A stretch of 64,000 nt of DNA from a virus: positions 1-64,000 of IMG/VR virus record IMGVR_UViG_3300027797_000001. One strand, 5' to 3'. Below the pieces are notes generated by a model. That model was not told the origin of the DNA. It did no database searches and saw only the letters and a list, made by a program, of their open reading frames with translations. The position numbers were made by a program, and so were the translations under genes. Numbering within the stretch: the first letter of the stretch is position 1; the number at the start of each line of letters is the position of its first letter. Of this stretch, positions 32,444 through 63,069 are shown piece by piece.

Positions 32444-32445
32444 TT

Positions 32446-32688: not shown

Positions 32689-32690
32689 TC

Positions 32691-33288: not shown

Positions 33289-33304
33289 CTTATTATATAT
33301 AATT

Positions 33305-34159
33305 ATGAAAACTTGTAAAGTAGGTTGTGGTAAGATGAAATCTGGGGGCACAATCAAGAAAGTAAAAAAGATGGCTAAAGGTGGTGCCGCAGACTATAAT
33401 TATGGTATTCCATTAAATGGTTTACCAATGCGCCCTACTAATGGTAACACAGATATTTCTAAAAATCAAATGGGAACTAACCCTACCATGAAAAAAGGTG
33501 GCACCATGAAAAAAATGCAAAATGGTGGTCCTAATAACCTAAAAAAAAAAATAGGAAGATTAGAAAATAAAAAAGAAAGACTTGCAAATAAACGTTCAAG
33601 AGCCAGCTCTATAAGTAGGAACTTTCAAGGGGATCCTGATACTTTAAGTAAAGTTGTTGATAATGCTCTTCAGAAAAGAGCTATTAATGTAATGGAAAAA
33701 GTTTCAAATAAACGAGAAATGATTAATAAAAAAATTAAAGAACTAAAATCTTCAAATGCTTCATCAAGTATGAAAAAAATGGCAAAAGGTGGTGCTAAGA
33801 AAACTTTAATTAAAGCTCAAGCTGGACGTTCAATAGTCAATCCTAAAGAAATGTCTGATAAAATCAGAAGAGGACCAGGAATGCCACCTCCGACACCATT
33901 TGGTAAAGTTGATTCAGGTCCAATGGTAAATACAAGAGTTGATTCAGGTCCAACGATGAACCCATATTCTTCTACAAAAGAAGCTAAACTTCCTATTTCT
34001 GGACCTTCTTTTAAGAAGGGTGGTTCTACTTCCTTTGGTATGTTATCAGTTAAAGCTGGTGTAGATAAAAATCCTAAAGCAACTGCAGCAGATAGAATTG
34101 CTGGTGCAAAGATGAGTAAGAAACAAATGGGTGGTATGACAAAATCTAAAAAGAAGTAA
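33305..34159 (+). CDS. basic protein with multiple GG motifs
   Basis: The 284-residue protein has at least six copies of the motif: KMKSGGT, KMAKGGA, MKKGGT, KMQNGGP, KMAKGGA (again) and FKKGGS, with KAQAGR in between. It also has a helical Lys/Arg/Asn-rich segment (residues about 80-150) and a Pro-rich stretch with a repeated VDSGP-type unit (GKVDSGPMVN/TRVDSGPTMN). It is strongly basic and disordered. The multiplicity of motif copies makes it the best object for testing whether the motif is a cleavage or binding site. Confidence 0.75.
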   Translation: MKTCKVGCGKMKSGGTIKKVKKMAKGGAADYNYGIPLNGLPMRPTNGNTDISKNQMGTNPTMKKGGTMKKMQNGGPNNLKKKIGRLENKKERLANKRSRASSISRNFQGDPDTLSKVVDNALQKRAINVMEKVSNKREMINKKIKELKSSNASSSMKKMAKGGAKKTLIKAQAGRSIVNPKEMSDKIRRGPGMPPPTPFGKVDSGPMVNTRVDSGPTMNPYSSTKEAKLPISGPSFKKGGSTSFGMLSVKAGVDKNPKATAADRIAGAKMSKKQMGGMTKSKKK

Positions 34160-34161
34160 TC

Positions 34162-34200
34162 ATGTGTAGCTGCAGAAATAAAGGTAAAGTTAAAAAGTAA
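34162..34200 (+). CDS. possible 12-residue peptide
   Basis: ATG at 34162 to TAA at 34200 encodes MCSCRNKGKVKK. It is basic with two Cys, lies 3 bases after one gene and 4 bases before the next, and has normal spacing. It may be a real micropeptide or just the linker between genes. Confidence 0.3.
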   Translation: MCSCRNKGKVKK

Positions 34201-34203
34201 GTC

Positions 34204-34488
34204 ATGGCAACTAAGAAGGCTACTGCAAAATTTGGTGCATCTGTAAAAGTGCAAAGAGGATATCCTGGAAAAATTAGATCTGCTAAAGATCAGGGATATA
34301 CTCCTGTGGGAGAAAGAGAACCTGACAGAACTAAGTTTAAAAAAGGTGGATCAACTGATAAAAAGTGGATTCAAAAAGCAATTAATCCTGCACATAAAGG
34401 ATATTGTACTCCTATGACTAAAGCTACTTGCACTCCTAAAAGAAAAGCTCTTGCTAAGACCTTAAAGAAAATTGCTAAAAATAAATAG
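34204..34488 (+). CDS. basic protein with FKKGG motif
   Basis: The 94-residue protein is Lys-rich, with KFKKGGSTDKKWIQKAINPA, GYCTPMTKATCTPKRKALAK and a final Lys-rich helix. The W-I-Q-K-A-I-x-P-x-x-x-G-x-C-x-P-(M/x)-T-K-x-x-C pattern also occurs, as I recall, in other phages, so it is a family of its own. It is the last of the small basic series. Confidence 0.65.
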   Translation: MATKKATAKFGASVKVQRGYPGKIRSAKDQGYTPVGEREPDRTKFKKGGSTDKKWIQKAINPAHKGYCTPMTKATCTPKRKALAKTLKKIAKNK

Positions 34489-45142: not shown

Positions 45143-48100
45143 ATGGCAAAGCAAAGTGGTGAAAATAGTGCACAGTTAATTAGTAATAGTTTTACTAAAG
45201 GTCTCAACAAAGATTCAGATCCAACATATATCTCAGAAGGTATGTGGACGCATGCAAGAAATGCGTCTAATAATACTTGGGAGGGAGATGTTGGTACAAT
45301 ATCAAATGAGTCCTCAAATTATTTATGTGCTACAGCAGGTGCAACTATGCCATCTTCTGGACAATATCTTGCACCAAATAAATATATAATAGGTGCTATT
45401 CAATTATATAGTGATAGATGGATAATCTATACCGCAGCACATAATCAAATTGGTGTTCCTATTTTATCTGAGATAGGTTTATTAATTGAAGATAGATGTA
45501 TCTATATGCCTATTGTTCAAGATACATGTTTAGGTTTTGATAAAAGATATTTGATTACAGGATCTGCTAGAGAAAAAGAAGATTGTACATGGCAAGTATA
45601 TTGGGCAGATGGTTTAAATCCAGATAGATTTTTAAATATTGGAGATCCACAGACTTGGCCAGATCCATCTGTTTATACAACCTTTGGACAATATGGTACA
45701 GTTAATCAAAATACTTATTTGTCTGCAACCGGAAATACTTTACAATGGCCTGGTGTAACTTGGACTCAAATATGTTGTGCAAGTACAACCTGTTGTCAAA
45801 CTGCACCTGGAGTTTGGCCTACTAATATTCCAAACTGTCCACCAGATAATGCATGTATTACTTGTACAGATACTAAAGATCTTGACTGTAATGCATTAAG
45901 ACTTGCAAGATTAATGGAGACACCATGTCTTAATTTAGAACTTGGTGTATCAGGTGGAACATTATTAAATGGAACTTATTTTGCAGTTATAGCCTATAGC
46001 ATTAAAGGACAAAGAGTAACTGATTATTTTTCACCAAGTAATACTCAACCTATTTGGTATCCATCAGATAGTCAAGGATCTCTTACACTTAATCTAGAAG
46101 TTGATAGTGATAATTTTGATGAGTTTATTTTAGTAATGGTTCAAAATGTAAATCAAGGAACTGTTGCTAAACAAATTGGAATTTACTCTACTAGAACTAC
46201 TAGAATTGAATTAGATAGAATTAAGGAAGATTTAATAACTGTTCCTATTGAACAATTACCAATTCTTAATCCGGTATATGAAACATCTGATCAAATAACA
46301 GAAGCAAATAATTATCTATTAAGAATAGGACCAAGATCTAAATTTGATTTTAACTATCAACCACTAGCTAATTTAATTAGAGCTAAATGGGTTTCAGTAG
46401 AATATCCTGCAGACTATTATATAAAGGGAGGAAATAAAGGAAGTTATTATAGAGATGAAGTTTATGCTTTCTTTATCAGATGGGTATACGATACAGGAGA
46501 CAAATCTTCTTCTTATCACATACCAGGAAGACCTCCTGGAAATTATATTTATCAACCACCAAATGGTGGACCTTTACAGATTATTCCTGAAACTACAGAT
46601 GGTATAAATGATATAAATACACTTGATGATTCAGATAGAATTTTTGAGATGTATAATACAGCAACAGTACAACCTATTCCTGCAACATTAAATACTACTA
46701 TTAATGATGGTGGAGTTGTAATAGGTTATGGTGATATGGGATATTGGGAATCAACAGAAAGATATCCAGATGATAAACCTGAGATATGGAATTCAAGTTC
46801 ACATTGTTGGACGGGTCCATTAGGTAATTCACCTATTATTGTTAATGGATCTCAATGGTATCCAAATGACTTATGTGCTCAACAAATTAGACATCATAAA
46901 TTTCCAGACAATAGTTTAGTTGATAGTAATGGTAACCCAGTTGGTTTACATTATAGGCCAAATCCTGGTATTAATACTCAAGAACTTAAGATAAGAATAA
47001 TGGGGGTAACCTTTGAAGACATTATTCTTCCTGTAGATAATGATGGTAATTTAATTCCAAATATTGTAGGGTTTGAAATATTAAGGGGGTCAAGAGAAGG
47101 TAGTAGAACAATACTTGCAAAAGGTATGATTAATAACTTTAGAAGTTATGCATTACCTGAATATCCTCTTGGTCTTTCTGGAACATCAATACAACAAGGT
47201 CTTTATGCGAATTACCCTTTTAATACAATAACACCAGTACAAGCAGTTAATATTCCTGGAGGACCATATTCAGATCCATACGTTAAATCTAATTTGTTTC
47301 AACAAGTTCCACAGGATATAGTAAGTATACATTCACCTGACTTAATGTTTTCAACCCCATATCTTTCAGCAACAGAATTAAAGATATATGGTGAGTTAAG
47401 AGGAAATTCACAGCAGTTTTTTAAGTATCCTGATAATCATCCTAGGCACAAGTTGCTTAGTGATGTTGTTCCTATTACGGCATTTGTTGCTGGAGTAGCA
47501 GAAGCTATAATTGCAATGATTGGTAAGAGAACAACTAATCAACCAGAAATATCTTCATATGCTACAAACTACAGTGGTTCTGTTTTTACTGTACCAGGTG
47601 CTTCAACTCTTGTAACAGCTCCTCTTCAAACAACAGCTTTAACAGCAATAGGTACAGCAGTAACAGGTTGGAATGGTTTTATAAGTAGTTATTATACTGG
47701 TACCGCAATACTAGATGCACTAGCACCATTACTAAGTTTACCAACAACATATGAAACAACATTAAATGCATTTCTTACAACTGTAAATACTGCAGCAAAT
47801 AGTGCTAGAATTCCAAAATTAACAATAGCAGGAAGTATTGAATTACCTCCACATGCGTACTTACCAGTTGGTTTAAGATCTCTTGGTGCATTAAATGTTT
47901 TTTCTTACTATTGGTCAGAAGGTGCAAATGTTGCAATTGATGCTGTATACACATTTGTTAAATATGAACAATATGCATTACAATCAATTGCACATGGGTT
48001 TTATCCTAAGTGGGGACAAGCAAGAATTAATGAAGCAAAAAGATTTAAAATAGATGACTCATTTTATATTAGAGATAATATACAACAAATGAGTGCTTAT

Positions 48101-50653
48101 CAAAATAATACTACAGGTATTTACAAAAGATACACAATTAATAATTTACAAAGAGGAGATACTGCAGTCATAAGAACTTTATCTGGTCCATATTTTAATC
48201 CGGCAAATCCAAATGGTACAAGTACAGGACCATATTTTATTACGGGTGCTAATAGAGATGTTTCACTAGTAACAATGTCTGGTTTAAATGGAAACACAAG
48301 TATTAATAATAACGTTACAATTAACACTTTAAATAATCAAACTCCAAATTGGACAGATGTTGACCAACCATTTAGTTTACCAATTGCCAGTCATTATGCA
48401 GCATTAAAGTATAGAATAAGAAATCAATATGGACAATTAGAAAGTATTAAACAAATTCAAATTACTCCATGTGAGCAAAAACTTTCAGATTATTCTATTG
48501 TGACAGCAGGTAATGTTTTTTGTCCAGGTAATCAAAGTGTTCTTACTGGAATTGCAAGAACTAATATTTTCTTTGGCGGGGATGTATTTATAAATAGATA
48601 CACAGAAAAGAATACTATGTTATTCTTTTATAATTGGTTATATGGTCAACCAGATGGTTTTGAGTTTAATTATTATTTATACTCAATGATTCCAAAATCT
48701 AGATTCTGGGCTAATACTCTCGAGTATGAAGCTCAAAATATGGCAATCTCAAACTGGAATGCATCAATCACTAGTGTTACAGGGGTATTCCCTACTGCAT
48801 TTTATAAATTAGATAATACTAATTATAATTTTAATAATGATTCAGTATCTAATTATCCAGGTTTTTGGAGAGCAAAAGAATCTTATTTTTATTTAGCTAA
48901 TTCTGGAGTAAGAGATTTCTTTGTAGAAAGTGAAGTACTTGTAGATTTTAGAATTTCTGGAGACCTTGAATTTGAAAAACATTATGACCCATACAGATAT
49001 ACAGATTTATACTCTATGTTTAATATGGACCCTCAAGTTATTACAAGAGGTAACATATGGAGATATGATTATTCTTTTAGCATAACTAAATTATACAATC
49101 AATATTTTTCATCAGGTAATTTACAAAGTAGATACTATGATCCATTTGTTGCTCAGTTATGTTATACATATCTTCCAGATAGAATTATATATTCATTACC
49201 GCAGCAAGAAGCAGCATTTAAAGATAGTTGGTTTATATACTTAGTGAATAACTATAAGGATTTTATATCTCAAGTTTCTGGAGTTAAGTCAATTAATAAG
49301 AGTGGTATATTCATTACATTTAAAAATGATAGTCCAACAATGTACCAGGGTGTTGATACATTACAAACAGATTTAGGTACTAAGATTACTATAGGTGACG
49401 GAGGTTTGTTTAGTCAACCTGGACAGTTTGCATCTAATGCAGATAAGCCATATGAGTATGGATCTTCACAAGATAAGTTTTCAATTATAGGTACACCTGC
49501 AGGTATTTATTATATCTCACAAAATCAAGGTAAGATATTTTTATATTCTGGAAATTTAAAAGAGATTTCTCAAGCAGGTATGAAGTGGTGGTTTAATTAC
49601 TTTTTACCTTATAAACTTACAGAAGATTTTCCTGACTATCCTTGGCAAGATAATCCTGTAGCAGGTATCGGGTGCCAATCTACATATGATAACCAAAACT
49701 CTATAGTATATTTTTCTAAAAAAGATTATCAATTAAAACCTGAGTTTAAAGATAAAGTAAACTATATTCCTTTGATAACTTATGGTAAACGAAAAGGACA
49801 AGGTGACTACTTTACTCATGTTGATTATCCAGGATCTCATTTTTTATTGGGTGATGAAACTTTATTTTTACCAGCATCTTGGACTATTAGTTTTGACCCT
49901 AAGAATCAGTTCTTTATTTCATTCCATGATTGGCATCCTGATTTAGCAATACCTACTAAGAAAACATTCTTAACAACTAAGTTTGCTGGAATGTGGAAGC
50001 ATAATGATTTATGTGATAACTTCTGTAATTACTATGGATCTAATTACCCATTTGAAATTGAGTTGCCTGTAAATACTGGTCAAACAGTAACAACTTTAAA
50101 ATCAATTGAGTATATGCTTGAATCATATAGAAGAAAGAATAATTGTTATGATCAATTCCATGTATTAGACTTTAACTTTGATAGAGCTATTATATTTAAT
50201 TCAGAACAAGTTTCCGGATATTTAAATTTAAACTTATTTCCTAAAAACAATATTACATTAAGTTTGGACTACCCAAACCTAAATGCAAACAATAATTCAT
50301 TTGATGTATTATTTTCAAAAGAAGAAAATAAATATAGAATAAATCAATTCTGGGATATTACAAAAGATAGAGGTGAATTCCCTATAGGATCAAATTATCC
50401 TCCTACTGGACCAGTAATTCCAGGAAGTACAATTTTATTAGGTAACTATGATCAAGAAGCTATTTGGAGTACTGAGCCAAACGGATATATTAAAACACTA
50501 AATCCTATTAATCTTAATTACGCTAAACCTGAAATGCAAAGAAAAAAGTTTAGACATTACTTAAACTTTATTACATTTATTAAAGATATCTCAGGTGACA
50601 CAAATATGTTATTGAAAATAACTAATACTAAAAATCAAATTTCTCCAAGATAA
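45143..50653 (+). CDS. very large tail protein, P22 gp10-like stabilisation protein
   Basis: The 1836-residue protein begins GENSAQLISNSFTKGLNKDS followed by DPTYISEGMWTHARNASNNT, the N-terminal pattern of the crAss-like stabilisation protein related to P22 gp10, which has the same E-G-M-(W/x)-T-H-A-R-N-A element. The rest is beta-rich, with many Tyr, Asn and Pro, and with propeller-like repeats. It likely forms the tail hub. Its length greatly exceeds P22 gp10, which suggests inserted domains. Confidence 0.8.
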   Translation: MAKQSGENSAQLISNSFTKGLNKDSDPTYISEGMWTHARNASNNTWEGDVGTISNESSNYLCATAGATMPSSGQYLAPNKYIIGAIQLYSDRWIIYTAAHNQIGVPILSEIGLLIEDRCIYMPIVQDTCLGFDKRYLITGSAREKEDCTWQVYWADGLNPDRFLNIGDPQTWPDPSVYTTFGQYGTVNQNTYLSATGNTLQWPGVTWTQICCASTTCCQTAPGVWPTNIPNCPPDNACITCTDTKDLDCNALRLARLMETPCLNLELGVSGGTLLNGTYFAVIAYSIKGQRVTDYFSPSNTQPIWYPSDSQGSLTLNLEVDSDNFDEFILVMVQNVNQGTVAKQIGIYSTRTTRIELDRIKEDLITVPIEQLPILNPVYETSDQITEANNYLLRIGPRSKFDFNYQPLANLIRAKWVSVEYPADYYIKGGNKGSYYRDEVYAFFIRWVYDTGDKSSSYHIPGRPPGNYIYQPPNGGPLQIIPETTDGINDINTLDDSDRIFEMYNTATVQPIPATLNTTINDGGVVIGYGDMGYWESTERYPDDKPEIWNSSSHCWTGPLGNSPIIVNGSQWYPNDLCAQQIRHHKFPDNSLVDSNGNPVGLHYRPNPGINTQELKIRIMGVTFEDIILPVDNDGNLIPNIVGFEILRGSREGSRTILAKGMINNFRSYALPEYPLGLSGTSIQQGLYANYPFNTITPVQAVNIPGGPYSDPYVKSNLFQQVPQDIVSIHSPDLMFSTPYLSATELKIYGELRGNSQQFFKYPDNHPRHKLLSDVVPITAFVAGVAEAIIAMIGKRTTNQPEISSYATNYSGSVFTVPGASTLVTAPLQTTALTAIGTAVTGWNGFISSYYTGTAILDALAPLLSLPTTYETTLNAFLTTVNTAANSARIPKLTIAGSIELPPHAYLPVGLRSLGALNVFSYYWSEGANVAIDAVYTFVKYEQYALQSIAHGFYPKWGQARINEAKRFKIDDSFYIRDNIQQMSAYQNNTTGIYKRYTINNLQRGDTAVIRTLSGPYFNPANPNGTSTGPYFITGANRDVSLVTMSGLNGNTSINNNVTINTLNNQTPNWTDVDQPFSLPIASHYAALKYRIRNQYGQLESIKQIQITPCEQKLSDYSIVTAGNVFCPGNQSVLTGIARTNIFFGGDVFINRYTEKNTMLFFYNWLYGQPDGFEFNYYLYSMIPKSRFWANTLEYEAQNMAISNWNASITSVTGVFPTAFYKLDNTNYNFNNDSVSNYPGFWRAKESYFYLANSGVRDFFVESEVLVDFRISGDLEFEKHYDPYRYTDLYSMFNMDPQVITRGNIWRYDYSFSITKLYNQYFSSGNLQSRYYDPFVAQLCYTYLPDRIIYSLPQQEAAFKDSWFIYLVNNYKDFISQVSGVKSINKSGIFITFKNDSPTMYQGVDTLQTDLGTKITIGDGGLFSQPGQFASNADKPYEYGSSQDKFSIIGTPAGIYYISQNQGKIFLYSGNLKEISQAGMKWWFNYFLPYKLTEDFPDYPWQDNPVAGIGCQSTYDNQNSIVYFSKKDYQLKPEFKDKVNYIPLITYGKRKGQGDYFTHVDYPGSHFLLGDETLFLPASWTISFDPKNQFFISFHDWHPDLAIPTKKTFLTTKFAGMWKHNDLCDNFCNYYGSNYPFEIELPVNTGQTVTTLKSIEYMLESYRRKNNCYDQFHVLDFNFDRAIIFNSEQVSGYLNLNLFPKNNITLSLDYPNLNANNNSFDVLFSKEENKYRINQFWDITKDRGEFPIGSNYPPTGPVIPGSTILLGNYDQEAIWSTEPNGYIKTLNPINLNYAKPEMQRKKFRHYLNFITFIKDISGDTNMLLKITNTKNQISPR

Positions 50654-53600
50654 TGTTTAATAAGAAGCTCCTTTCAAGTATAGATTTAGGGAAGTATAAA
50701 AAAAAGAATCCCTATAAGAAAGATATGATTTTAGATCCTATGGGTCAATGGAAACATCCTGGGAAAAATACTAGAATACCCTCTGACCGGATTACAATGA
50801 AAGGAGTTAATTATCCTGTCTTGGGTGTATCAAATACTGGACAAAAACAAATGATGCAACCCGGAAGAGAATATAATTTTCCTGGAGCAGATTATGTTGA
50901 TGAATATCCACAGATGAAAAACGGTGGTTTACCTAAAGCTCAAAAAGGTGCAGCTACATACCAAGATAGTTTAGATGTATATAATAATGCTTTAAAACTA
51001 AAAGCTTTTTATGATTCAAAAAAACAATTATATAATATATCTACTAGACCATGGTATGGTACAAGCAATTTAAAAAAGGAAGAAAAAGAAACATATGATT
51101 ATGATAAAAATCCGGCTAACAATCCGGATGTAAAAACTTGGACACCTCAACAAAAAAGAAATTTTCAAAAAACAAAAGATTTAATTAAAGCAAATAAAGA
51201 TCCAAACATTGCTTATATTACAGATCTAATAACAGGTGCTTTAGATCCAGATGCTCCTGCTTCAAGATATGATAATAGAATTAAACCTCAATCAGAAATA
51301 GCATATTCGCCTTATAAAGCTCAATATTCAAAAACAGAAGACTCACTTTATGACAAACTTCAGAAAAACTATGATGGTATGAGTAGTTATGGTGATCCAA
51401 GATTTCCTACCTTAACTCCAAGTAAAAAAGATCTTTTAGATTATGCTAAAAAACTTGGTTATAGTCAAAAAGATGCTATAAGTCTTTTATATAAACTTAA
51501 AAGAGAAAATCTTGCTATGGCAAACACACCTGGAGTTAATACTATCTTACCATATTATGATCCTCTTGCAGTAAAACCTGGGAAACTCCTTACAGATGAT
51601 GAAATAAGAATTAGAGTTAAGAAATATGGTACAACTGGTATTCCTCAAAATAGATTAGACAAACTTGGTTTAAATAGTTCAAACCCACCAAAAAGTTCAA
51701 ACCCACCGAAAAAAAGTACATCTTCTACAGTTACTAAATCACCATGTTCAAATCCAACAACTACTGTTATAAATAATGTACCAGATAAAATTCCTTTTGG
51801 AAAAAAGTTAGTTGGTACAGATGAAGAAACATTACCAGTAACTGGGAAAAAATGTGAGTATGTTAAAACTATAAATCCAATTTATGAGGATGTTACAATA
51901 GATCCTATTAAACCCCCAGCAATTGCATTAAGAGTAGACAATGGTATTTTACCACCATTGCAACAATCAACTTATGTTCCACAAGAACCTATTGAAGCTC
52001 CACAATATGCATTAGGCCCTTATACTGCTGATAGATTACGTTTATCAGTAACACCTGGAAAAACAAAAAAAGTAACAAAACGTGGAAGATTGTTTGATGG
52101 TAAAGGTCAAGGATATAAACATACAGAATATAAATCAACTAAAGATTTGGAGTTTGGAAAAAAAGAAGTTACTAGATTAATACCAAGAATTGTTCAGAAG
52201 ATTACTGGTTATGATCCAGAATACTTTGAAGGTTCTTATGATGAAGAAGGTAACTATATTCCTGGAGAATTAGACTTTGGTAATGAGGTTGGTGGTAGAA
52301 TGGAATTTAGAGGAGCTGCATCTTTACAAGATTTAATAAATCAACAGAAGTATGCAAAAGACTGGGAAGAGTATGAAAGAAAGATTGATGAGAGAGAAGA
52401 ACAATCAAAGAAAAAACAAGAAGAGGGTAGAGCATTTAAAAAAGGTGGAACAAAGAAAAGAATATATAACCCTAATGCAAAGTATTATGCGGATGGTGGA
52501 GAAAATTTACAAGAAGAATGTCCACCATATCACTATTGGAATGGAGAAACTTGTGTTCCAGTTAGTAGAGAGCTTGCTCCTCTTGATCCACAATACTTAT
52601 CAGAAAATCCAGATGTTGCAACAAACATGCAAATTGAACCAGAAGTAAGTGTTAGTCCATTAGGTTCGGATTTTTCCAAGGCAAAGTCATGGATTGATAA
52701 ATGGCATGATTCTCCAATGCATGATAAAATGCTTATGAAATCATTACAGGGTAATAAAAAACTTTTTAAAGAATATAAGGATAAAAGAAAAAAAAATATA
52801 CAAACTATTCCAGCACTAAATATTAGTTTAGATAAAAGTGATCCTTTATATAAAGAAATAAAAGATTATTATGGGTTTGCTCCATGGGGAGCATCGGATA
52901 GTAATACAGGTGCTGTTTCAATATATAATTCTCATCCTGGAAATAAACAAATGTTAATTCATGAGGTTACTCATTCTTCTGATAGACCAGATGATAAATT
53001 AGGTAGACTTATTCCACCTAATGACCAATTAACAATACAATATAGAATCCCATTAAATTGGAAATATAGTCAATATGGTAAAGATATGATGAAAGAATAT
53101 AAAGAAAAAGGGTGGCGGTTAGATGATGAATATATGGGTGAAGAAGAAATACCAAGAGATATATATGAACAACAACAATTTAATGATTGGAATAAATATT
53201 TATTAAGTGACCAAGGAACTGAGGTTAGAGCAAGATTAAGTGAGATAAGACAGGATGCACAAGAACAAAATATTTATGACCCTTTTAATAAAAAAATAAC
53301 AAGAAGGCAATTTAAAAATTTAAAAAATATAAAATATCCTGATTCATTAGATGACCTTAAAAAAACTTTTTCTGATAAAGATATAAAGTGGATGTTAAAT
53401 AACATTTCTAAAAACAATAATGAAACTGAAGATGCTATTCAATATGGTAAAAAAGGTGGGGCAAAGAAAAAATACACAAGTGATATAATTAATAGTACTA
53501 ATTATCTTTTTGCGGAACATCCTTTATTTAAAAAGAAGAAACAATCTAAGAAAAGAATATATAACCCTAATGCAAAGTATTATCAATTAGGTGGATTAAC

Positions 53601-56463
53601 ACGATTTGTACCACAAGCTGGTAGAATGTTTGCTTTACCACCTATTACTAATACAATTGCAAATACTGCACCAGGTATTTTAAATTCTATAAAGACTATA
53701 TCGCAAAAACTTCCTACTAATTTATTAGATGAAGGTGCAAGAGATTTATTACATTATCCTAGTTTTGATGTTACACTTGGAGAATCAAATTTAACAGGAG
53801 TTGATGCTGCAAAGTATTTGGGAGACTTTGGCTTTAAACCATATTCAGAAGGTTGGACAGCTCTAAGTGACATGAAAAATGCATTTGAAGGAAAACAATG
53901 GAATCCTAGTAAAGAAGATTATTATACTCTTGATGAAATTTATAATTTAATAAATAAGCAAACAAATTATTTAAATGATCTTGCTAAGTTTAATGAAACA
54001 AATCCTGATGAATTAGGTGAGTATGGAAATTTATTAAGATGGATGCAAAATGATTTTAGTAGAGATGAATTATTTTCATTGTTATTTCCAAATTCTAGTA
54101 GACCAAATTTTAAAGAAAAATTTTATCGCCCAGAACATATAAATTTATTAAAACAAACTACACCCAATCCTGAAACTGGTATAAATTTATATGATAATTT
54201 AATTAAAAATACCAATTTTGGAGATAAAGGTTTAGTAGATAAGTATACATTAAGAAGATCAATAACAGAACCTAATACTGAAATATTACCGGGATCTGAA
54301 GATCTAATGTTATATAGACAAAGATATGAACCCTACAGAGGTTTAGATGCTGGTAATTTAAGTGAACGTAAAGATGTAATAGAGTTTCTTAAAGATCATG
54401 ATGGCATTTTAGGTTTTGAATTTAAAGATCTTAATAATGAATATTCCAATAATTTAAATTATTGGAAAGAACAAATATTTGAAAAGTTTGATAATCGACA
54501 ATATAAAAAATTTCAAAAGAAGTTTAAAGAACAATCTAAACCTGGAACTAGCTCTAAACTTAAAGGATTAGATGCTTATAATCAAATAATTAATAGAACT
54601 GGTTCTAGAAATAAATACGGAGGAGAACTACCTAAAGGTAAATACGGATACTCTGTTGGTAATCTTATAAGAAAACAATTTGGTGGTTTAGGTAGAGATC
54701 AAAGTTTATCAGTTTCACCATATGATCTTGATACTTACATTGGAGCTTCTGGAAATCAAATATATAATCCAGGATATAGTCTTACATATAATAAGCCAAA
54801 CCTTTTTAAAAAATTAGATGTAGTTGGAACTCCTTTTCAAGTATCAATAGGAAGACCTTATAATACTGATCCAAATAGTTTAACTAATCAATCTTTAAAT
54901 TTTGGAACATCATATGACTATGAATATATGGATCCAGGAGTACAACAAGGTCCACAACAAGAAGCTATAAATAATGCAGCTGCACAATATTTAGGAAAGG
55001 ATGTTCAAGATTTAAACCAATCTGATTTAAATAAATTTTCAGCATTTAAATCATTAGGGGAAATTAAAAATGCTTATGCTCCAGGAAAACCAATTAATTT
55101 ATCTACAAAACTTTCATTTTTAGGTAAAGCATTTAGTGACCAACCTGTTAGAGGTTTTGGATCAATATCTGGTGGTTATAATCCTGAAGCAGGTTTTTGG
55201 GCAGGAGCTGATCTTGGAGGTTTTGGAGTAATCTCAAATAAAAAACCAAAAACATATTTTGATAGAGGTTTATCTAGAAAAGGAGATTGGGCGGTTATTC
55301 CTAGTCTTTCTTTATTCTCTCCAGCAATTAGACAAAAAGGAATTGCAAATCTAGAACAATCTGCAGAGTATAAACGCTTATTAGAAAAAGATATACAAGA
55401 GGGTACTGATTCAGCACAAAATTATTATGATAATCAATTAGATGATCAGGGTAAGTCAACAATGACATTTAATGCAAGACCGGAAATTAAAGCGCAACTT
55501 AAACCATTTAAAAAGTTTCCCGGAATCTTAGAAGGGGTAGTTGGAGCTAATATAGATTTTATAAGTGGTGGTAAGGATTCTATGGATAAAATTACAACTA
55601 ATATAAACCCATACGGCAAAATATCATATGCTGTTTCTATTCAAGATGAGTTAGATAGAATGAAACGTAAGATGAAAAATGTAGAATTTCCTGATAAAAA
55701 ACACTATGAAGATTACGTAGAAGAATATGAAAATCAAACTACAGAAGAAACTCCTACAGAAACTGATAATCAAATTAATCCACCGGAGGTTGAATTAAAT
55801 TTTGATGGTCAAGGAGTAGGAAAAGCAGACTGCCCTAAAGGCTATGAAAGACCATGTGAAAAATGCAGATGTCAAAAAATAAAAATGCCTCAAATGTATA
55901 CAGACAAAAGAGGTAAACAGTTATTTGGCAATGAGCCTATTAGATTTCAAGATGGTGGAGAACAGGATGCAATGAATGCTATGATGAAAGCAAGACTTGC
56001 TTATGCTAATATGTTTGGTAATCCCTCAGCACAAAGAATGATTAATCTTCCAGATCAACCTTATGAATTTGATAATGGGAATACAGGCACACACTACATG
56101 GCAAGTATGGATAACTATGCTGTACCTCAAATTCAAGATGAGAATGGAGTATTACAGATTGGAAACTATGGTCCAGAATCTACTGAGGCAATGAGATTTG
56201 ACTCAGATGAAGATGCTAATTATTTTGCAGAAAACTATAAAGATGTTTCACCAGGATTTATGGATCTAGAACTTGATGATAATGAGATAGAAGAATACAG
56301 AAAAGGTGGTTATATAATAGAAGATATTTCTGTGCCTTCACTAACTAGAATGCAGCCTGTTGGTAAATATCAAGATGGTGGAGAATATCAATTGGGTGAT
56401 GAAGTAGATGAAGCTACTATGAAACAATTAAAAAAATTAGGTTTTACATTTGAACAAATTTAG
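50653..56463 (+). CDS. 1936-residue modular virion protein with metalloprotease-like insert
   Basis: The protein is a mosaic. Residues about 25-95 carry DPMGQWKHPGKNTRIPSDRI and VNYPVLGVSN, a domain also seen at the start of proteins in related phages, and end in MKNGGLPKAQKG. Further GG motifs follow at about 598 (FKKGG), 613, 979 and near the end (FQDGGE, KYQDGGE). Between two identical 36-base repeats (residues 601-612 and 966-977) lies a metalloprotease-like module with MLIHEVTHSSD (HEVTH at 770-774) and TEVRARLSEIR (Glu857). A later module spans about 980-1320. It is probably a virion or ejected cargo protein. Its end shares the GYIIEDI tail with the next gene. Confidence 0.75.
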   Translation: MFNKKLLSSIDLGKYKKKNPYKKDMILDPMGQWKHPGKNTRIPSDRITMKGVNYPVLGVSNTGQKQMMQPGREYNFPGADYVDEYPQMKNGGLPKAQKGAATYQDSLDVYNNALKLKAFYDSKKQLYNISTRPWYGTSNLKKEEKETYDYDKNPANNPDVKTWTPQQKRNFQKTKDLIKANKDPNIAYITDLITGALDPDAPASRYDNRIKPQSEIAYSPYKAQYSKTEDSLYDKLQKNYDGMSSYGDPRFPTLTPSKKDLLDYAKKLGYSQKDAISLLYKLKRENLAMANTPGVNTILPYYDPLAVKPGKLLTDDEIRIRVKKYGTTGIPQNRLDKLGLNSSNPPKSSNPPKKSTSSTVTKSPCSNPTTTVINNVPDKIPFGKKLVGTDEETLPVTGKKCEYVKTINPIYEDVTIDPIKPPAIALRVDNGILPPLQQSTYVPQEPIEAPQYALGPYTADRLRLSVTPGKTKKVTKRGRLFDGKGQGYKHTEYKSTKDLEFGKKEVTRLIPRIVQKITGYDPEYFEGSYDEEGNYIPGELDFGNEVGGRMEFRGAASLQDLINQQKYAKDWEEYERKIDEREEQSKKKQEEGRAFKKGGTKKRIYNPNAKYYADGGENLQEECPPYHYWNGETCVPVSRELAPLDPQYLSENPDVATNMQIEPEVSVSPLGSDFSKAKSWIDKWHDSPMHDKMLMKSLQGNKKLFKEYKDKRKKNIQTIPALNISLDKSDPLYKEIKDYYGFAPWGASDSNTGAVSIYNSHPGNKQMLIHEVTHSSDRPDDKLGRLIPPNDQLTIQYRIPLNWKYSQYGKDMMKEYKEKGWRLDDEYMGEEEIPRDIYEQQQFNDWNKYLLSDQGTEVRARLSEIRQDAQEQNIYDPFNKKITRRQFKNLKNIKYPDSLDDLKKTFSDKDIKWMLNNISKNNNETEDAIQYGKKGGAKKKYTSDIINSTNYLFAEHPLFKKKKQSKKRIYNPNAKYYQLGGLTRFVPQAGRMFALPPITNTIANTAPGILNSIKTISQKLPTNLLDEGARDLLHYPSFDVTLGESNLTGVDAAKYLGDFGFKPYSEGWTALSDMKNAFEGKQWNPSKEDYYTLDEIYNLINKQTNYLNDLAKFNETNPDELGEYGNLLRWMQNDFSRDELFSLLFPNSSRPNFKEKFYRPEHINLLKQTTPNPETGINLYDNLIKNTNFGDKGLVDKYTLRRSITEPNTEILPGSEDLMLYRQRYEPYRGLDAGNLSERKDVIEFLKDHDGILGFEFKDLNNEYSNNLNYWKEQIFEKFDNRQYKKFQKKFKEQSKPGTSSKLKGLDAYNQIINRTGSRNKYGGELPKGKYGYSVGNLIRKQFGGLGRDQSLSVSPYDLDTYIGASGNQIYNPGYSLTYNKPNLFKKLDVVGTPFQVSIGRPYNTDPNSLTNQSLNFGTSYDYEYMDPGVQQGPQQEAINNAAAQYLGKDVQDLNQSDLNKFSAFKSLGEIKNAYAPGKPINLSTKLSFLGKAFSDQPVRGFGSISGGYNPEAGFWAGADLGGFGVISNKKPKTYFDRGLSRKGDWAVIPSLSLFSPAIRQKGIANLEQSAEYKRLLEKDIQEGTDSAQNYYDNQLDDQGKSTMTFNARPEIKAQLKPFKKFPGILEGVVGANIDFISGGKDSMDKITTNINPYGKISYAVSIQDELDRMKRKMKNVEFPDKKHYEDYVEEYENQTTEETPTETDNQINPPEVELNFDGQGVGKADCPKGYERPCEKCRCQKIKMPQMYTDKRGKQLFGNEPIRFQDGGEQDAMNAMMKARLAYANMFGNPSAQRMINLPDQPYEFDNGNTGTHYMASMDNYAVPQIQDENGVLQIGNYGPESTEAMRFDSDEDANYFAENYKDVSPGFMDLELDDNEIEEYRKGGYIIEDISVPSLTRMQPVGKYQDGGEYQLGDEVDEATMKQLKKLGFTFEQI
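52453..52488 (+). repeat. 36-base exact direct repeat, copy 1
   Basis: This encodes KKRIYNPNAKYY in frame, followed by ADGGE. The DNA is identical to 53548-53583, including third codon positions. Confidence 0.85.
53548..53583 (+). repeat. 36-base exact direct repeat, copy 2
   Basis: This encodes the same KKRIYNPNAKYY, followed by QLGGL. Being identical at the DNA level within an otherwise diverged gene, it indicates recent recombination or copying. Confidence 0.85.
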
Positions 56464-56465
56464 TG

Positions 56466-59400
56466 ATGGCAAAGTATAGAATTACAAGTTTACCGCAGTC
56501 TTTACCTAAAGCACAAAAAGGATTATTTAATAAAAGAAATAAAATATCTGTTAGAAACGGTGAAGTTAAATTGTTTCCAAATTTATTTGGTGATAAAAAA
56601 AGAAACAATATAGATACTCAAGATCAATCAGATGATACACAATATAACTGGTCTGGCACAACTCCAGAATTAATGCAACCTGATCAAGAGTCTTTTGAAT
56701 TAAAACCTACATATGCACCAACACCAGAGTTTACTCAAGCAGATGTTAATTTAAGTTCTACTCTTAGTAAAATACAAGAGGAGAGAGACAGATTAGCTCA
56801 AGAAAAAGAAAACAAGGATTGGGAAGAGATGATGAAAAAAAGAGATGAGAAATTTAAAACTTCTAAAAAATATGATAAAATAGAACCTTTGCTTACAATT
56901 GATTCTGAAGGATATGCAGATGAGGATCTTGCTTATTTTCAAGAGGCTGGATATTTTCCAGTAAAAGATTCAAAAACAAATAAAATAAATTTATATCCAT
57001 CAAATGAAATAAATTCAAAAATTATTAATAATGGTTTAAGAACAGATGAGATTGTTAAAAAACTTGGAATAGGTGATGCTGAATCTGTGAAGTCTGCTTT
57101 TGGAGATTTAATGACTGCTGCAGATCAACAGTATTCGGCTACTGTTCAAAACAAATTATTACAAAAATCACTAGATGAAGGTATTAGTTTAGAAGACGCA
57201 GTTAAAAAATTATCTGGTAAACTTGGAACTGAAAAAGGTCTTCAAAAATATGTTGCGCCTACTACTGATTTAATAAATAATTATATTGATGAAATTAAAA
57301 AAAATGTAAACCAACCTGCGGAGAAAGAACTTCAGTCAATGTACTATGATAATAGAAATCCTAATCAAGGTTATTCTCCAAAGATTGATTATAATTCATA
57401 TGATCCAGGGTTAAAATATAACACGGATTATTATAATACTACAAATAATTGGGGACAATTTCTTAAAGACTATTCTGATTATAATAAAGAGTATGATAAA
57501 GAATATGCAGATTCATTTTATAATAAACAAAATCAAACTGCTGATAAATTAAATTTACCTGTGTCAGATAGAACAGGAAATTTAAAAAATCAACAAGATG
57601 TGATTAATCAAAATATATCATTAACTAAACAAGTTGGAGATGTTTCTACAGAAGCAGGAAATAAAACAATAAATAAGAAGTATATAGAACAACTACAGGC
57701 AGACATGGCAAGAGTTTCTGATCCTTTAGTTAAATATGAACTAAGTAAAAAACTTGATGCAGTAAAAAATAATCCAGAAGCTTTTTCTAAACTCTTAAAA
57801 GGTTTTGAATCTGGAGAAGTCTTTACAAAAGAAGATGAAGATAATATCAATGCTTTAACTTTTAGTATCCTTCAAAAAGAATCAAATCCAGATACTATAA
57901 AAGCTGGTGTAGATAGACCTAAACTTACAACATCAGATAAAGTATTTGATGTATTAACTAATCCATTTGACGCATTTAAATATTCAAACCAAGGAGGTTT
58001 AGATAATATGTGGACTAGCGGTATGGGTTATAATGAAAGAAAACTTTTAGAAAGAGCTAATCCAGAATTAAATCTTGGAACACAAGATAATCTAGTTGGT
58101 AATGCTTTGAATACATGGAATCCAATGAGATTTGCAAGAGATGTAGATTCTGATCTAGATAGAGAAGACTATGCTTCTGCTGGTTTAGAGGCACTTGAGT
58201 TTGCTACTCCTGCAATGTTTTCAAAAGCTGCAAGAGCTGGTAGATTAGCTAGAGACGCAAGTAAGTTTTTTCCAACTGGTTCAATCACACCAGGATTAAA
58301 AGGATTTACCGGATCTGCTTTTGAATCATTAAATCCCTATTTTGCATATGAGGCAATAAGACCAGGGGGAGAATTAAATAGATCATACGATTTACTTAAA
58401 GAAGGAAATATTAAAGAAGGACTTCAAGAAGGTGCTTTTGGTCTATTAAATCTTTTACCTGCAGCTGGTACTTTTAAAAGTTTAAAAAGTGCTGAAAACA
58501 TAGGTGGTGCTAAACCATTTGTATCACAACAATTAAGTTTTAAGAAAGGAGGAGAGTTACCTACTTATCAAGGGCCAATAAGATCAATTGTAAAAAGTAT
58601 TCCTTCTAAACTTGGTAATTTAGCAATGAAGACTGGAATAAAAACATTGCAACTTCCCGGAGTTAAACCTTTTTTTAGAAGTAACTATAATCCAATTAGT
58701 TATCCAATTAGTTATCCAATAAAACTTTTAGGTGAAAAAATAGCTAGACAATCTCTTAGTCCAAGTAGAAATAAAGAACAAGTTATTGCTGCACTTACTA
58801 AAAAAGCAGCCCCAGAAGAAAACCTTTATTTTGGTAATGTAACTGCTGTGGATCCAGAATATGGTTATGGTAAAAGAGATTTAATTGCTAATTATTTTAG
58901 AGGTATAGATACTGGTTTTAAACCAATTGACTATGATATTTATTCAGATCCTGGTTTAAAAAAATATATAGATAGATATGGACCTTTAAAAACATATGAA
59001 CTTAATTCATCTGTTAAACATGGTCAACCTTTAGACATTGCTGATTTTACTAGGCTGCTAAATATAGATGATACTAAATTAAGTAATTTTGATCAAGATC
59101 TTTATGAAGATGAAGTTTTTCAAAATATGCCTGGTTTAGAAGATTATTACTATAATGAGTATATGAATAATCTTCCTGGAACTAGTACTCCTAGTCCATA
59201 TAAAGCACAAAGACAATACTATAAAAAAATGTTACATCAATATTTTGATAAACGCGGTATAGAAGTTCTCCCTCTAGTTGTTGATCCAGATTTGAATACA
59301 TTAGGTAATGTTAAAAATTATTTAAGCCGTAATCCCGCTATATCATATGATGATCTTGCTGGTCATATGGGTTATTTAAAAAGATTGCCAAACAAAGAAG

Positions 59401-59654
59401 ATTTTGAATTTACTACAAGAGATATATGGAAATTTACACCTGATGACTATCATTCTAAATGGGCAGGATCTTCAAATAAAGATGAACTGTTTAAACAATT
59501 ACAAGTTGAGGCTATGGATGCATTTGGAAAACCATTTGTTTTAACCCAAACAAATCCAATGAAATTTAAAAACGGTGGTTCAATGGAATTAGAATTAACA
59601 CCAAAACAAATTAAAGAGTATATAAAAGCTGGATATATCATTGAAGATATCTAA
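56466..59654 (+). CDS. large virion/cargo protein with PKAQKG motif
   Basis: The protein of 1062 residues starts at the ATG at 56466; an in-frame GTG at 56463 would overlap the previous stop. It begins MAKYRITSLPQSLPKAQKGL, with the PKAQ-x-G motif. It is then helical and Asn/Lys-rich up to about residue 690, with KKGGELPTYQGP near 695. The C-terminal 350 residues include GHMGYLKRLPNKEDFEFTTR followed by DIWKFTPDDYHSKW, and the end is FKNGGSMELELTPKQIKEYI followed by KAGYIIEDI. No enzyme motif is recognised. It is probably an internal virion protein delivered into the host. Confidence 0.7.
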   Translation: MAKYRITSLPQSLPKAQKGLFNKRNKISVRNGEVKLFPNLFGDKKRNNIDTQDQSDDTQYNWSGTTPELMQPDQESFELKPTYAPTPEFTQADVNLSSTLSKIQEERDRLAQEKENKDWEEMMKKRDEKFKTSKKYDKIEPLLTIDSEGYADEDLAYFQEAGYFPVKDSKTNKINLYPSNEINSKIINNGLRTDEIVKKLGIGDAESVKSAFGDLMTAADQQYSATVQNKLLQKSLDEGISLEDAVKKLSGKLGTEKGLQKYVAPTTDLINNYIDEIKKNVNQPAEKELQSMYYDNRNPNQGYSPKIDYNSYDPGLKYNTDYYNTTNNWGQFLKDYSDYNKEYDKEYADSFYNKQNQTADKLNLPVSDRTGNLKNQQDVINQNISLTKQVGDVSTEAGNKTINKKYIEQLQADMARVSDPLVKYELSKKLDAVKNNPEAFSKLLKGFESGEVFTKEDEDNINALTFSILQKESNPDTIKAGVDRPKLTTSDKVFDVLTNPFDAFKYSNQGGLDNMWTSGMGYNERKLLERANPELNLGTQDNLVGNALNTWNPMRFARDVDSDLDREDYASAGLEALEFATPAMFSKAARAGRLARDASKFFPTGSITPGLKGFTGSAFESLNPYFAYEAIRPGGELNRSYDLLKEGNIKEGLQEGAFGLLNLLPAAGTFKSLKSAENIGGAKPFVSQQLSFKKGGELPTYQGPIRSIVKSIPSKLGNLAMKTGIKTLQLPGVKPFFRSNYNPISYPISYPIKLLGEKIARQSLSPSRNKEQVIAALTKKAAPEENLYFGNVTAVDPEYGYGKRDLIANYFRGIDTGFKPIDYDIYSDPGLKKYIDRYGPLKTYELNSSVKHGQPLDIADFTRLLNIDDTKLSNFDQDLYEDEVFQNMPGLEDYYYNEYMNNLPGTSTPSPYKAQRQYYKKMLHQYFDKRGIEVLPLVVDPDLNTLGNVKNYLSRNPAISYDDLAGHMGYLKRLPNKEDFEFTTRDIWKFTPDDYHSKWAGSSNKDELFKQLQVEAMDAFGKPFVLTQTNPMKFKNGGSMELELTPKQIKEYIKAGYIIEDI

Positions 59655-59680
59655 ACCTTTGAAGTTTACTCATTAAATTT

Positions 59681-59704
59681 ATTTTTAGTATATTTAATAT
59701 ATAA
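59681..59704 (+). promoter_or_regulatory. promoter-like motif ATTTTTAGTATATTT
   Basis: One change from the consensus (final A is T). It lies 27 bases after the previous stop and starts 32 bases before the ATG at 59713. Confidence 0.6.
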
Positions 59705-59712
59705 CGTGCACA

Positions 59713-62700
59713 ATGACAAAAAAGAAAGTAAGAATATACAAGGCTCCAGATGGTAAAGGTCAGTATATAAATAAAACTGCAAAGTTCTTAAAGAAAGCTG
59801 CATTTGGTGGTCAATCAGATACTCCGCAAGAGGATATGTATTCTCAATTGGCACAAGCTTCATATATGTCTATTAAAAAGGGACAAAGTCCAAAGGCAGT
59901 ATATGACTTTTTAATTAATAATAAAATTAGTAAAGATGTTGCTGAGAAAATTGTGACAAGTGTTATACAGTTCATGATGTCAAAAGGTGAATTAGAACAA
60001 GAAGACCTTGACGAAGATCAGCAAAAAGAGCAACAGATGCAAGCTCAAATGCAACAACAGCAACAAGAAAAAGAACAAATGGCTTCTGAACAAGATGCTG
60101 CTAATGAAGCACAGATGGACATGTACAACAAACAAAGTATGGATGTTGCTAATGACATGTCTCAGTATGATCAAGAAGCAGAAGCTAACTTAGATACAGA
60201 AGATATATTAGGTTTTCAGGCTGGTGGTCAAATGACTACAGATGATTTATTGTCAGAACTTAATAAGCATGATAATGATATTAATTTCCAAGATTTAGAA
60301 TCATTAATTCAGTCTACTCCTGGAACACAAAGTGCATCATTCCCAGGGATTGAAGAATACTACTTACCTTATATTCCACTTTATAGTGAAAGCAATGAGA
60401 TTCCAATTTATAATCCAATACAAAGTGATAATCAATATAAGTTTGGGGGAAAAACAAAAAAGAAATTTATAGGATCAGTACTAGAACTTTTAAAGAAAGA
60501 AGAGGGTGGCGAGGATGAAGTAATTAATAATACTACAGCTACTCCTAAAGATGATCTTACAAATACTGTTAAGAGAAAACAAGATTCATTTGTATCAGCA
60601 TTAAGTGACGAAGCTAAAAAAATAAAAATAGAAGAGTATTATAATCAAATTAAAAATACAAATGATCCAGATACTCAAGAAATTTTAGGTGGAGGCCCTG
60701 ATCAAATGAAAAGGGGTGGCAGAACTAAAAGAAAAGATAATAGACTGCTTAGAAAATTAAATAGAATACTAGGACAAAATGATATGTATGGTATGCAAGG
60801 GTATATGCCATATAATTATTTTAATAAGCGTAGTGGAGATTTTGCAAATCAAAGATTTGATACTTTAGACTATCCATCAATTGCAGAATACTATAAAGCA
60901 TTGTTAGAGAAAATGCCAGTGTTAAATCAAATGTCAAGAGTATTGCCTCAAGTAGATGTTTATGACACAGGTTTATTTGGTAGACCAAAGAAGTATAAGA
61001 TTTCATATAACATTCAACCAGTAGATAAATCTGCAGAAAGACAAGCTATGGAAGCTGTTATTAAGAACAATACTGGATCATCTTTCCCAATGTTATATCC
61101 AAATCCTGGTTATGATGGTTCTCCTGCTCCAGCTGGTACAATGTTAGATGTAGTTAATGACCGCTCTATAGCTCCTATACAATATGATGCATCTGTAAAA
61201 CCTATGGTTCCTACAGGTCCAATGGCTTTTCAGTTTGGAGGTTCAGCTATTTTTGATCCTTCTGCAAGTACATTAGCAAAATATATCTATGGTGGCAATG
61301 ATTTTCCAGAAGATTCTAAGAATGTAAATGATCCATACTTTTCAGATACTACACCATATCCACAAATGCAAAATGGCGGAGATCCCACTGAATATACACA
61401 TTATACTCATGGAGCTAATGATGTATTTCATGATAACATGAATATGATAAATCAAGCTAAGGATGGTTTAGAAACTGGTGGTGATGAATATGCTCTTGAT
61501 TATATAAGACAACTTGCTGGTCAAATGAAGCAGTATAATAAAGCTTCTAGAAAATTAGGAAGGCAGGCAAGAAGAATGACTGGAAATACCATGTTAGATT
61601 ATTTAATTCCTATCAATAGACCTTTTGAGTATGCAGGAAGTTATGGTCAACAAAGGGGAATGCCATTTGATTATGAGACCGGTGAAGAATACACCGGTGA
61701 AATAGACCCATCTAATTTTGTAGCAAGGGATAATTATAAAATAGGAATGTTTGGTAAACCTAAAAAATTTATAGATTATTATTCAGTAGGTAATGAAGGA
61801 CTTAATGTTCCAGATGATTTTTCAGAAATTGAACCATATACAAAGTCAAAACAAAAAGCTCCTGCTCAACAAGATGTTTATAATGAACAAGAAGAGGAAG
61901 ACATTTCTTTTCGTCAAGCAAGAAGGAATGATGGCGTAAGTAATATTAGAGGTGCTTTTGCAAGAATGTTTCCTGAAAGTTCAGGTAGAGAAGATAGAGA
62001 AAGAATGTTTCCTATGCTCAGAGCTCAAGACTCAGATAGAAGTGAAGACAGAAGATTGTTTCCAATGATGAGGGCGGATAAAAAACAAGAAGGTGGAGAA
62101 CCAAACCAGGATGATTATTATAATGATTTATTTTCTAAATTAAACTATAGTAATACCTATAGCAATTATTACAATGAATTAGAATTTAGAAAAGGTGGAA
62201 GAGTATTAAGAAAAGCATTTGCGGGTTTAGAAAATACACCTGTTTCATATAATGACAATCCAGTTACTTCACAAAATATTATTAGTCAAAATACTCCAGA
62301 TCCTATGGAGCAAATGACAGCATTTCAAGGACCTATTATAGAAGATAGTGACTTTAATTTTCCAACTGATCTTCCTGGACCAGTTTCTACAACTAAACCT
62401 TATGTTGAACCTGCAGAAGATGATTGGTCAGGTCCTCAAATGAGTAATCCAGACATAGATTATCCTGCTGGTCCTGAGAAACTTAAAAATAAATTAGTAG
62501 GTGTTAAGAGAAAAAGAAAAGATATGTTTAATATAGATCCAGAAGCAGGTGTTAATGCATTTAATGCTGGAGCTAGAGGAGTTCTTGGTGGTATTGATAG
62601 AATGAGGAATAAGAAACAAGAAGCAAACATGTATGCTAAAAACTTTGACCCTACTAAAATTTATGGACAAAAATCAAGAATAGATAAAGGTGACTATGAT

Positions 62701-63069
62701 GTAAATAAAGGATTGTATAGAGTAAATCAAATGGGTGCTGATAGATTAGGCCGCTCTAAAAAGTATGGAGGTTATATGCAACCAGGAGGATCAGTAGATC
62801 AACAAATGTATTACCCTGAAGACAATATGGTTTATCCTCCAGGAGATAGTCAGTATCCAATGATTCCTTTGAATCAAGATATTATGGATATGATGTATAA
62901 CCAATACTATTCTGATCCTAACTTTGCACCTTATATGGAAGACCCATATATGGAAGAAACTCCAGAGCAAATGGACTACAGAATGGTAAAAGAAGGTGGA
63001 GAAACCTATATGTCAGATGAACAAATAAATGCCTTCTTAGCTGAAGGAGGAGAAATTGAATATTTATAA
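59713..63069 (+). CDS. 1118-residue Gln/Asp-rich virion/cargo protein with many GG motifs
   Basis: The protein starts MTKKKVRIYKAPDGKGQYIN, then KAAFGGQSD. It has a Gln/Glu-rich coiled coil (about residues 95-150, many QQ runs), and repeated motif copies FQAGGQ, KFGGKT, MKRGGR, FQFGGS, MQNGGD, RKGGRV, MQPGGS, VKEGGE and LAEGGE, about ten in all. Spacing is 60-150 residues, as if marking module borders. Two tandem segments RMFPMLRAQDS / LFPMMRADKK are similar. It ends FLAEGGEIEYL. No catalytic motif is seen. Likely a virion protein. Confidence 0.75.
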   Translation: MTKKKVRIYKAPDGKGQYINKTAKFLKKAAFGGQSDTPQEDMYSQLAQASYMSIKKGQSPKAVYDFLINNKISKDVAEKIVTSVIQFMMSKGELEQEDLDEDQQKEQQMQAQMQQQQQEKEQMASEQDAANEAQMDMYNKQSMDVANDMSQYDQEAEANLDTEDILGFQAGGQMTTDDLLSELNKHDNDINFQDLESLIQSTPGTQSASFPGIEEYYLPYIPLYSESNEIPIYNPIQSDNQYKFGGKTKKKFIGSVLELLKKEEGGEDEVINNTTATPKDDLTNTVKRKQDSFVSALSDEAKKIKIEEYYNQIKNTNDPDTQEILGGGPDQMKRGGRTKRKDNRLLRKLNRILGQNDMYGMQGYMPYNYFNKRSGDFANQRFDTLDYPSIAEYYKALLEKMPVLNQMSRVLPQVDVYDTGLFGRPKKYKISYNIQPVDKSAERQAMEAVIKNNTGSSFPMLYPNPGYDGSPAPAGTMLDVVNDRSIAPIQYDASVKPMVPTGPMAFQFGGSAIFDPSASTLAKYIYGGNDFPEDSKNVNDPYFSDTTPYPQMQNGGDPTEYTHYTHGANDVFHDNMNMINQAKDGLETGGDEYALDYIRQLAGQMKQYNKASRKLGRQARRMTGNTMLDYLIPINRPFEYAGSYGQQRGMPFDYETGEEYTGEIDPSNFVARDNYKIGMFGKPKKFIDYYSVGNEGLNVPDDFSEIEPYTKSKQKAPAQQDVYNEQEEEDISFRQARRNDGVSNIRGAFARMFPESSGREDRERMFPMLRAQDSDRSEDRRLFPMMRADKKQEGGEPNQDDYYNDLFSKLNYSNTYSNYYNELEFRKGGRVLRKAFAGLENTPVSYNDNPVTSQNIISQNTPDPMEQMTAFQGPIIEDSDFNFPTDLPGPVSTTKPYVEPAEDDWSGPQMSNPDIDYPAGPEKLKNKLVGVKRKRKDMFNIDPEAGVNAFNAGARGVLGGIDRMRNKKQEANMYAKNFDPTKIYGQKSRIDKGDYDVNKGLYRVNQMGADRLGRSKKYGGYMQPGGSVDQQMYYPEDNMVYPPGDSQYPMIPLNQDIMDMMYNQYYSDPNFAPYMEDPYMEETPEQMDYRMVKEGGETYMSDEQINAFLAEGGEIEYL

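Follow-up and report, generated by a model that had tools for sequence, protein, structure and literature searches.

Organisation of the locus

The window, i.e. the whole stretch of DNA analysed here, comprises 64,000 nt (positions 1 to 64,000 of IMG/VR virus record IMGVR_UViG_3300027797_000001) and is part of a 115-kb virus record. A DNA similarity search gave no match to annotated phages. By sequence, the source phage is Crassvirales-like, and homologues of the crassvirus capsid, muzzle and ring proteins were all found (Pfam: PF23898, PF25731, PF25702, PF24228). These are the major capsid protein at 28871–30490 (PF23898, E 2.6e-29), the muzzle protein at 45143–50653 (PF25731, E 4.5e-18) and ring proteins 2 and 1. 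The capsid and muzzle genes and the ORFs and elements described below at 31605–34488 and 50653–63069 are on the plus strand.

Directly 3' of the muzzle gene lies an ORF (50653–56463) whose reading frame is open through 1936 codons; the giant protein of the initial annotation is therefore real. We refer to it as the slot protein. It is followed in the same gene block by a second protein with GG linkers (56463–59654; ORF list and motif scan) and by a third (59713–63069) with seven strict motifs and the tail GGETYMSDEQINAFLAEGGEIEYL, recognised by motif scan and tail pattern. Four ORFs at 31605–34488 encode small Lys-rich proteins with a total of 11 strict GG motifs (KMQDGG, KMAKGG, KFKKGG). These proteins and another at 19393–19779 carry up to six KMxxGG-type motifs each, as in the giant proteins, and one of the small motif-bearing proteins matches DUF6321. 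Elsewhere in the window, 14167–16548 encodes a protein of 793 aa that combines collagen-like repeats with a CBM_5_12 carbohydrate-binding module and is probably a fibre.

The slot protein begins with a conserved N-terminal element, DPMGQW...ITMKGVxYPV...FPGADYVDEYPQMKNGG (residues 29–92; 50737–50928), which occurs in 44 loci (cluster 0) and also in Leptolyngbya phage Lbo-JY46. The GG linker AFKKGG (52444–52449) forms an upstream boundary at which homology to locus L072 ends. Next comes the first copy of a 36-nt repeat (KKRIYNPNAKYY; 52453–52488), which, from the exact repeat and the comparison with L072, appears to be the remnant of a truncated linker. The linker YYADGG (52495–52500) opens the peptidase module (residues 665–936; 52645–53460), which is delimited by the AlphaFold model, an alignment of its family and tandem homologues in gp081 of phage phi14:2, and the linker GKKGG (53455–53460) closes it. 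A full copy of the conserved linker follows (KKYTSDIINSTNYLFAEHPLFKKKKQSKKRIYNPNAKYYQLGG; 53461–53595; cluster 3, 25 loci), containing the second 36-nt repeat (53548–53583) and 91% identical in DNA to the single copy of L072. According to the locus comparison, the module at residues 982–1324 (53596–54624) is not found at the same place in L072 or L064 and has a relative in L024. The one at residues 1346–1640 (54688–55572; cluster 12) is also present in L072 and L064 and looks beta-barrel-like by eye. The protein ends in two successive C-terminal tail elements after GG (EYRKGGYIIEDIS..; KYQDGGEYQLGDEVDEATMKQLKKLGFTFEQI; 56302–56460), of the kind common to most downstream ORFs. A two-cysteine motif resembling CPxGYxxxxxGxCVP occurs soon after GG linkers at many module starts, e.g. 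at residues 621–640 of the window protein.

A zincin-like module

The HEVTH motif (residues 770–774; 52960–52974) and the downstream TEVRARLSEIR, starting at residue 856 (53218), are both present as first reported, and so are GG doublets at both module ends (residues 598–599, 615–616, 935–936 and 980–981). We aligned 39 modules of the family (alignment A5, in which L111 is a fragment spanning the catalytic part alone). At a mean column identity of about 21%, H770, E771, H774, D777, E857 and R859 are invariant. Since both His, both Glu, the Asp and the Arg are retained in all 39 members, the combination of HExxH and Glu is not a chance match. HEVTHSSD (52960–52983) is predicted to form the zinc-ligand helix with H770, E771 and H774 and contains the invariant D777, while TEVRARLSEIR (residues 856–866; 53218–53250) holds the presumed third zinc ligand E857 and the invariant R859.

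An AlphaFold model computed with the 39 sequences reached a pLDDT of 88.5 and a pTM of 0.87; with 11 sequences it was poorer (pLDDT 63.8). HExxH lies on helix 100–112 of the model and E857 on helix 192–207, a zincin-type placement, and the last 17 residues, including the closing GG, are disordered. The zinc-peptidase-like character that the initial annotation had read from the motifs was thus borne out by a confident model with the catalytic residues on two helices, while comparison with solved structures did not add to it: a Foldseek search of the PDB gave no hit at E < 0.001, the weak matches including neprilysin and MMP12, and a sequence search of solved structures gave nothing relevant. 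The assignment is accordingly based on the catalytic residues and on where they lie in the model, which make the segment very probably a zinc peptidase module.

Pfam, PHROGs and NCBIfam contain no family for the window module itself. Nor did the A5 alignment match Pfam at a meaningful score, so that no known polyvalent MPTase model in Pfam was matched. Of the 39 family members, 22 match PHROG 24249, which bears the name ‘tail protein’. Among predicted viral structures, the best matches were structural proteins of the Cellulophaga phages phi14:2 (E 2.3e-5) and phi4:1 (E 1.7e-4). A single pattern scan across bacterial genomes turned up no confirmed relative, which is weak evidence against a bacterial origin of the module. 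In the window protein, the zincin is the sole enzymatic module recognised, by way of the A5 alignment.

The GG linker and the common C-terminal tail

In a dereplicated set, the sequence information around GG is limited to the three preceding positions, with F, Y or M at -3, K, Q or A at -2 and position -1 as the third, apart from a trace at the residue following GG; there is little around GG in control ORFs upstream. We define the motif [Y/F/M]-[K/Q/A]-x-G-G as a new linker which, on the evidence of the sequences compared, separates modules. Its strict form occurs 33 times in the window genome, always in nine late proteins (5880 aa), where shuffling predicts 1.5. With this recurrence, the GG doublets flanking the HEVTH module belong to a longer motif.

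Most ORFs of the gene block terminate in GG followed by a common tail of about 25 aa, for example ELTxxEIxxYxKxGYIVEDI or DEVDEATMxxLKKLGYTFEKI. A conservative tail pattern was found in 30/40 slot ORFs, in 34/57 other ORFs and in no true control ORF; the 10 nominal ‘control’ hits are downstream ORFs, nine from duplicate loci and one a small ORF of L028. A second short element, [LM]PKAQxG, often stands right after GG and is present at 0.59 per 1000 aa in downstream ORFs vs 0.07 upstream.

The slot is a hypervariable mosaic

Scanning with the muzzle protein yielded 76 loci, and slot proteins of 57 muzzle-bearing loci were compared. In these, the first ORF after the muzzle gene ranges from 307 to 2789 aa, and cutting the 57 proteins at GG gives 309 segments of many families. 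Pfam domains in 29 slot proteins include SET, Phage_lysozyme, Amidase_2, ART-PolyVal and the DUF6782 metallopeptidase, and slot proteins as a group hence combine several unrelated enzymatic domains per phage polypeptide. SET domains, unusual in phages, stand near the N terminus in 8/29 of these proteins (L028, L030, L064, L067, L076 and others).

Of the ends of homology blocks (n=230), 70% are no more than 10 aa away from a GG, as against 17% for random positions. In the clearest case, L023 and L066, DNA identity is 95% over the first 153 aa and 98.5% from about residue 350 onward, with one unrelated module in between that is bounded by YQEGG and YQ(E/I)GG. L023 and L019 have in common only the first 153 aa, to YQ(E/D)GG, and a short element beginning at GG. 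Homology-block ends and locus comparisons alike bear out the mosaic nature originally proposed for the giant protein, with modules swapped between phages at GG linkers.

The peptidase takes part in this exchange. On the muzzle tree it was gained or lost at least four times when slot proteins carrying other HExxH modules serve as the reference for the count, and L023/L066 differ from L019/L020 in its presence at near-identical muzzles; it is gained or lost between relatives rather than constant. Between the window and L064 the peptidase is 75% identical at muzzles only about 58% identical, which points to transfer of the module between phage lineages.

Relatives in cultured phages

Gp081 of Cellulophaga phage phi14:2 (KC821624) is a 593-aa protein annotated from MS/MS virion proteomics. 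It contains two HExxH domains separated by GG, which match the A5 profile (E 1.9e-17), and its gene adjoins gp082, the gene in muzzle position. From position and size gp082 is the presumed muzzle; phmmer gave no hit between it and the window muzzle. Gp081 thus shares with the window protein the same zincin family, here in tandem with GG between and before the domains, and the place beside the muzzle-position gene. It differs in its length of 593 aa, in having no further recognised modules and in its remote sequence similarity.

In Leptolyngbya phage Lbo-JY46 (PP438436), the gene following a muzzle homologue (E 4e-71) encodes the slot N-terminal element, and the next gene encodes the C-terminal tail. 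This phage was isolated on the cyanobacterium Leptolyngbya boryana and is annotated only as Caudoviricetes; the region 79333–87808 of PP438436 (L138) shows a crAss-like virion plan.

Origin of the repeat, probable catalysis and possible processing at GG

The two copies of the 36-nt direct repeat (52453–52488 and 53548–53583) are indeed 100% identical and encode residues 601–612 and 966–977. They form the longest exact repeat of the ORF, compared with 14 nt on average and 20 nt at most in 200 codon-shuffled versions, and KKRIYNPNAKYY makes up the final part of a conserved linker of about 56 aa that is present in 25 loci. The copies had been taken as footprints of a peptidase cassette inserted by homologous recombination. 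A module bracketed by exact repeats fits such an event, and deletion of the stretch from KKGG to KKGG would, as we infer, still leave a complete linker architecture. L072 and L064, however, carry the peptidase at the same place, behind the same upstream segment, without a flanking repeat pair. L072 is the closest relative (muzzle 87% identical), and its single linker, a full one, precedes the peptidase, whereas the window has a truncated linker upstream and a full one downstream, followed by module 982–1324. What the window has in addition to L072 and L064 is the second linker copy and a different downstream module, and not the peptidase. The two window copies are identical to each other, and the L072 copy differs at two positions within the 36 nt. 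As the nearest relative has the peptidase in place without two repeats, insertion between repeats is not the best reading, and we regard it as unlikely. On the simplest reading of the sequences, the repeat would be a duplicated linker end, duplicated along with the gain of module 982–1324. The catalytic role of the module itself might also be doubted, as the name ‘tail protein’ of PHROG 24249 and the annotation of phi14:2 gp081 as ‘structural protein’ could mean that it is a structural domain of the particle devoid of catalysis, and the remoter domains of gp081 are different around the Glu motif, a caveat to the invariance. ‘Structural’, however, signifies for gp081 just detection by MS/MS, and invariance of HExxH, Asp, Glu and Arg at about 21% mean column identity is as expected for an active site, so that a dead domain is very unlikely.

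It had further been suggested that the zincin cleaves its own polypeptide and frees the neighbouring modules at GG. Self-cleavage by the MPTases of polyvalent proteins has been proposed in general, with the processing of phage P1 DdrB as cited precedent (Iyer et al., 2017, PMC5512222); in the present family the peptidase residues are conserved and most modules are GG-bounded. Against this, the same work names MPTase proteins that stay uncut when they are packaged or transferred, some family modules lie at the very C terminus of a protein or alone in a small ORF (L112, L109), and the other GG-motif proteins among the late proteins of the window genome carry no HExxH. The density of GG linkers is also alike in slot proteins that lack HExxH (9.3 per 1000 aa, n=26) and in those that have it (7.9, n=27). 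Because GG density is independent of HExxH, self-processing at GG is highly improbable. In adenovirus and African swine fever virus, precursor proteins are cut at GG-X. Similarly, a maturation protease of the phage, which need not be the zincin, could cut at the GG linkers; the GG-motif proteins would then be polyproteins that are cleaved behind GG while the head is assembled or once they have been injected. Such a reading, which we hold to be rather doubtful, would agree with a consensus that is one-sided, before GG, as for non-prime-side recognition; with the confinement of the motif to nine late proteins, small Lys-rich ones among them; with the conserved tail after GG in most ORFs; and with the disordered linker behind the peptidase in the AlphaFold model. 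On the other side, no candidate protease was recognised among the scanned late genes, and a flexible or docking linker accounts for the same facts. In crAss001, the FGG site of gp45 (427–428) is inside the resolved segment 425–552 and is therefore uncut, although homology of gp45 to the window proteins is unproven. A search of papers accessible without subscription found nothing on GG processing in crAss-like phages. Tentatively, and with the same reservation, [YFM][KQA]xGG might be the recognition site of an undescribed crAss-like maturation protease that cuts both the small Lys-rich proteins and the giant cargo polyproteins, the tail then being a packaging tag removed on maturation. If true, one chain would deliver many separate, exchangeable effectors, in convergence with the precursor processing of adenovirus and African swine fever virus.

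Proposed role as virion cargo

We propose that the ORF encodes a virion cargo protein of the polyvalent type, composed of exchangeable modules joined by GG, of which the zincin is one, and probably injected; we put the probability of this reading at roughly 0.7. The cargo proteins that crAss001 stores in its capsid and tail are products of the genes following the muzzle gene (PMC10172136), and with a crassvirus muzzle gene directly upstream, the slot gene sits where cargo genes are expected. A related module is part of a protein detected in particles of the cultured phage phi14:2, for which reason the slot protein is probably cargo. Its presence in the virion and its injection are thus probable on the grounds of phi14:2 and gene order.

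According to this model, the slot protein would travel in the particle and enter the infected bacterium together with the DNA, as a string of independently folded modules on short flexible [YFM]-[KQA]-x-G-G linkers, which also form the joints for module exchange between phages. The C-terminal tail and the conserved N-terminal element may direct loading into the virion. The zincin would most likely be an injected effector or an enzyme for cell entry, alongside the peptidoglycan hydrolases and modifying enzymes in the slots of relatives. The 36-nt repeat would have arisen by linker duplication as the phage gained the different downstream module.

Crassvirales are abundant, most of them have not been cultured, and the role of their cargo proteins in the host is little understood. 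The GG linker, the shared tail and the variable slot beside the muzzle gene allow giant proteins to be read module by module and candidate injected effectors to be found automatically. As phi14:2 is cultured and its virions contain a related module, peptidase activity, cleavage at GG and delivery are directly testable.

Comparison with known systems

The cargo proteins gp45, gp46, gp47, gp49 and gp50 of phiCrAss001 are, like the window protein, encoded after the muzzle gene; they were detected in virions, and gp45 was resolved in capsid and tail (PMC10172136). Gp45 also has many GG doublets, e.g. FAYGG and AFGG. Unlike the window, phiCrAss001 has no zincin slot protein, and its muzzle gene, gp44, is followed by gp45 with nothing of the kind in between. 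Neither BLAST nor profile comparison found homology between the window ORF at 63079 and gp45, for which reason the gp45 data do not count as support here.

Phages and conjugative elements encode polyvalent proteins, in which zincin-like MPTase domains are frequent (Iyer et al., 2017, PMC5512222); the text of that paper leaves crAss-like phages unmentioned. The window protein resembles these proteins in its size, in its zincin and in the setting of its gene among virion genes, here directly after the muzzle and ring genes; many unrelated enzymatic modules per chain, a trait of the slot proteins as a group, are a further likeness. The repertoires overlap, as ART-PolyVal and lysozyme modules are found in the slot of relatives, and the Asp three residues after HExxH in the window zincin matches a variant described in PMC5512222. 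Differences are that the window zincin matches no Pfam family, and that the modules of slot proteins are joined by a specific GG linker and followed by a common C-terminal tail.

In polymorphic toxins, effector domains are exchanged as modules behind a conserved N-terminal region. The slot proteins likewise exchange effector domains behind a conserved N-terminal part, but they do so at many internal joints and not at the C terminus alone, and their genes lie among phage virion genes.
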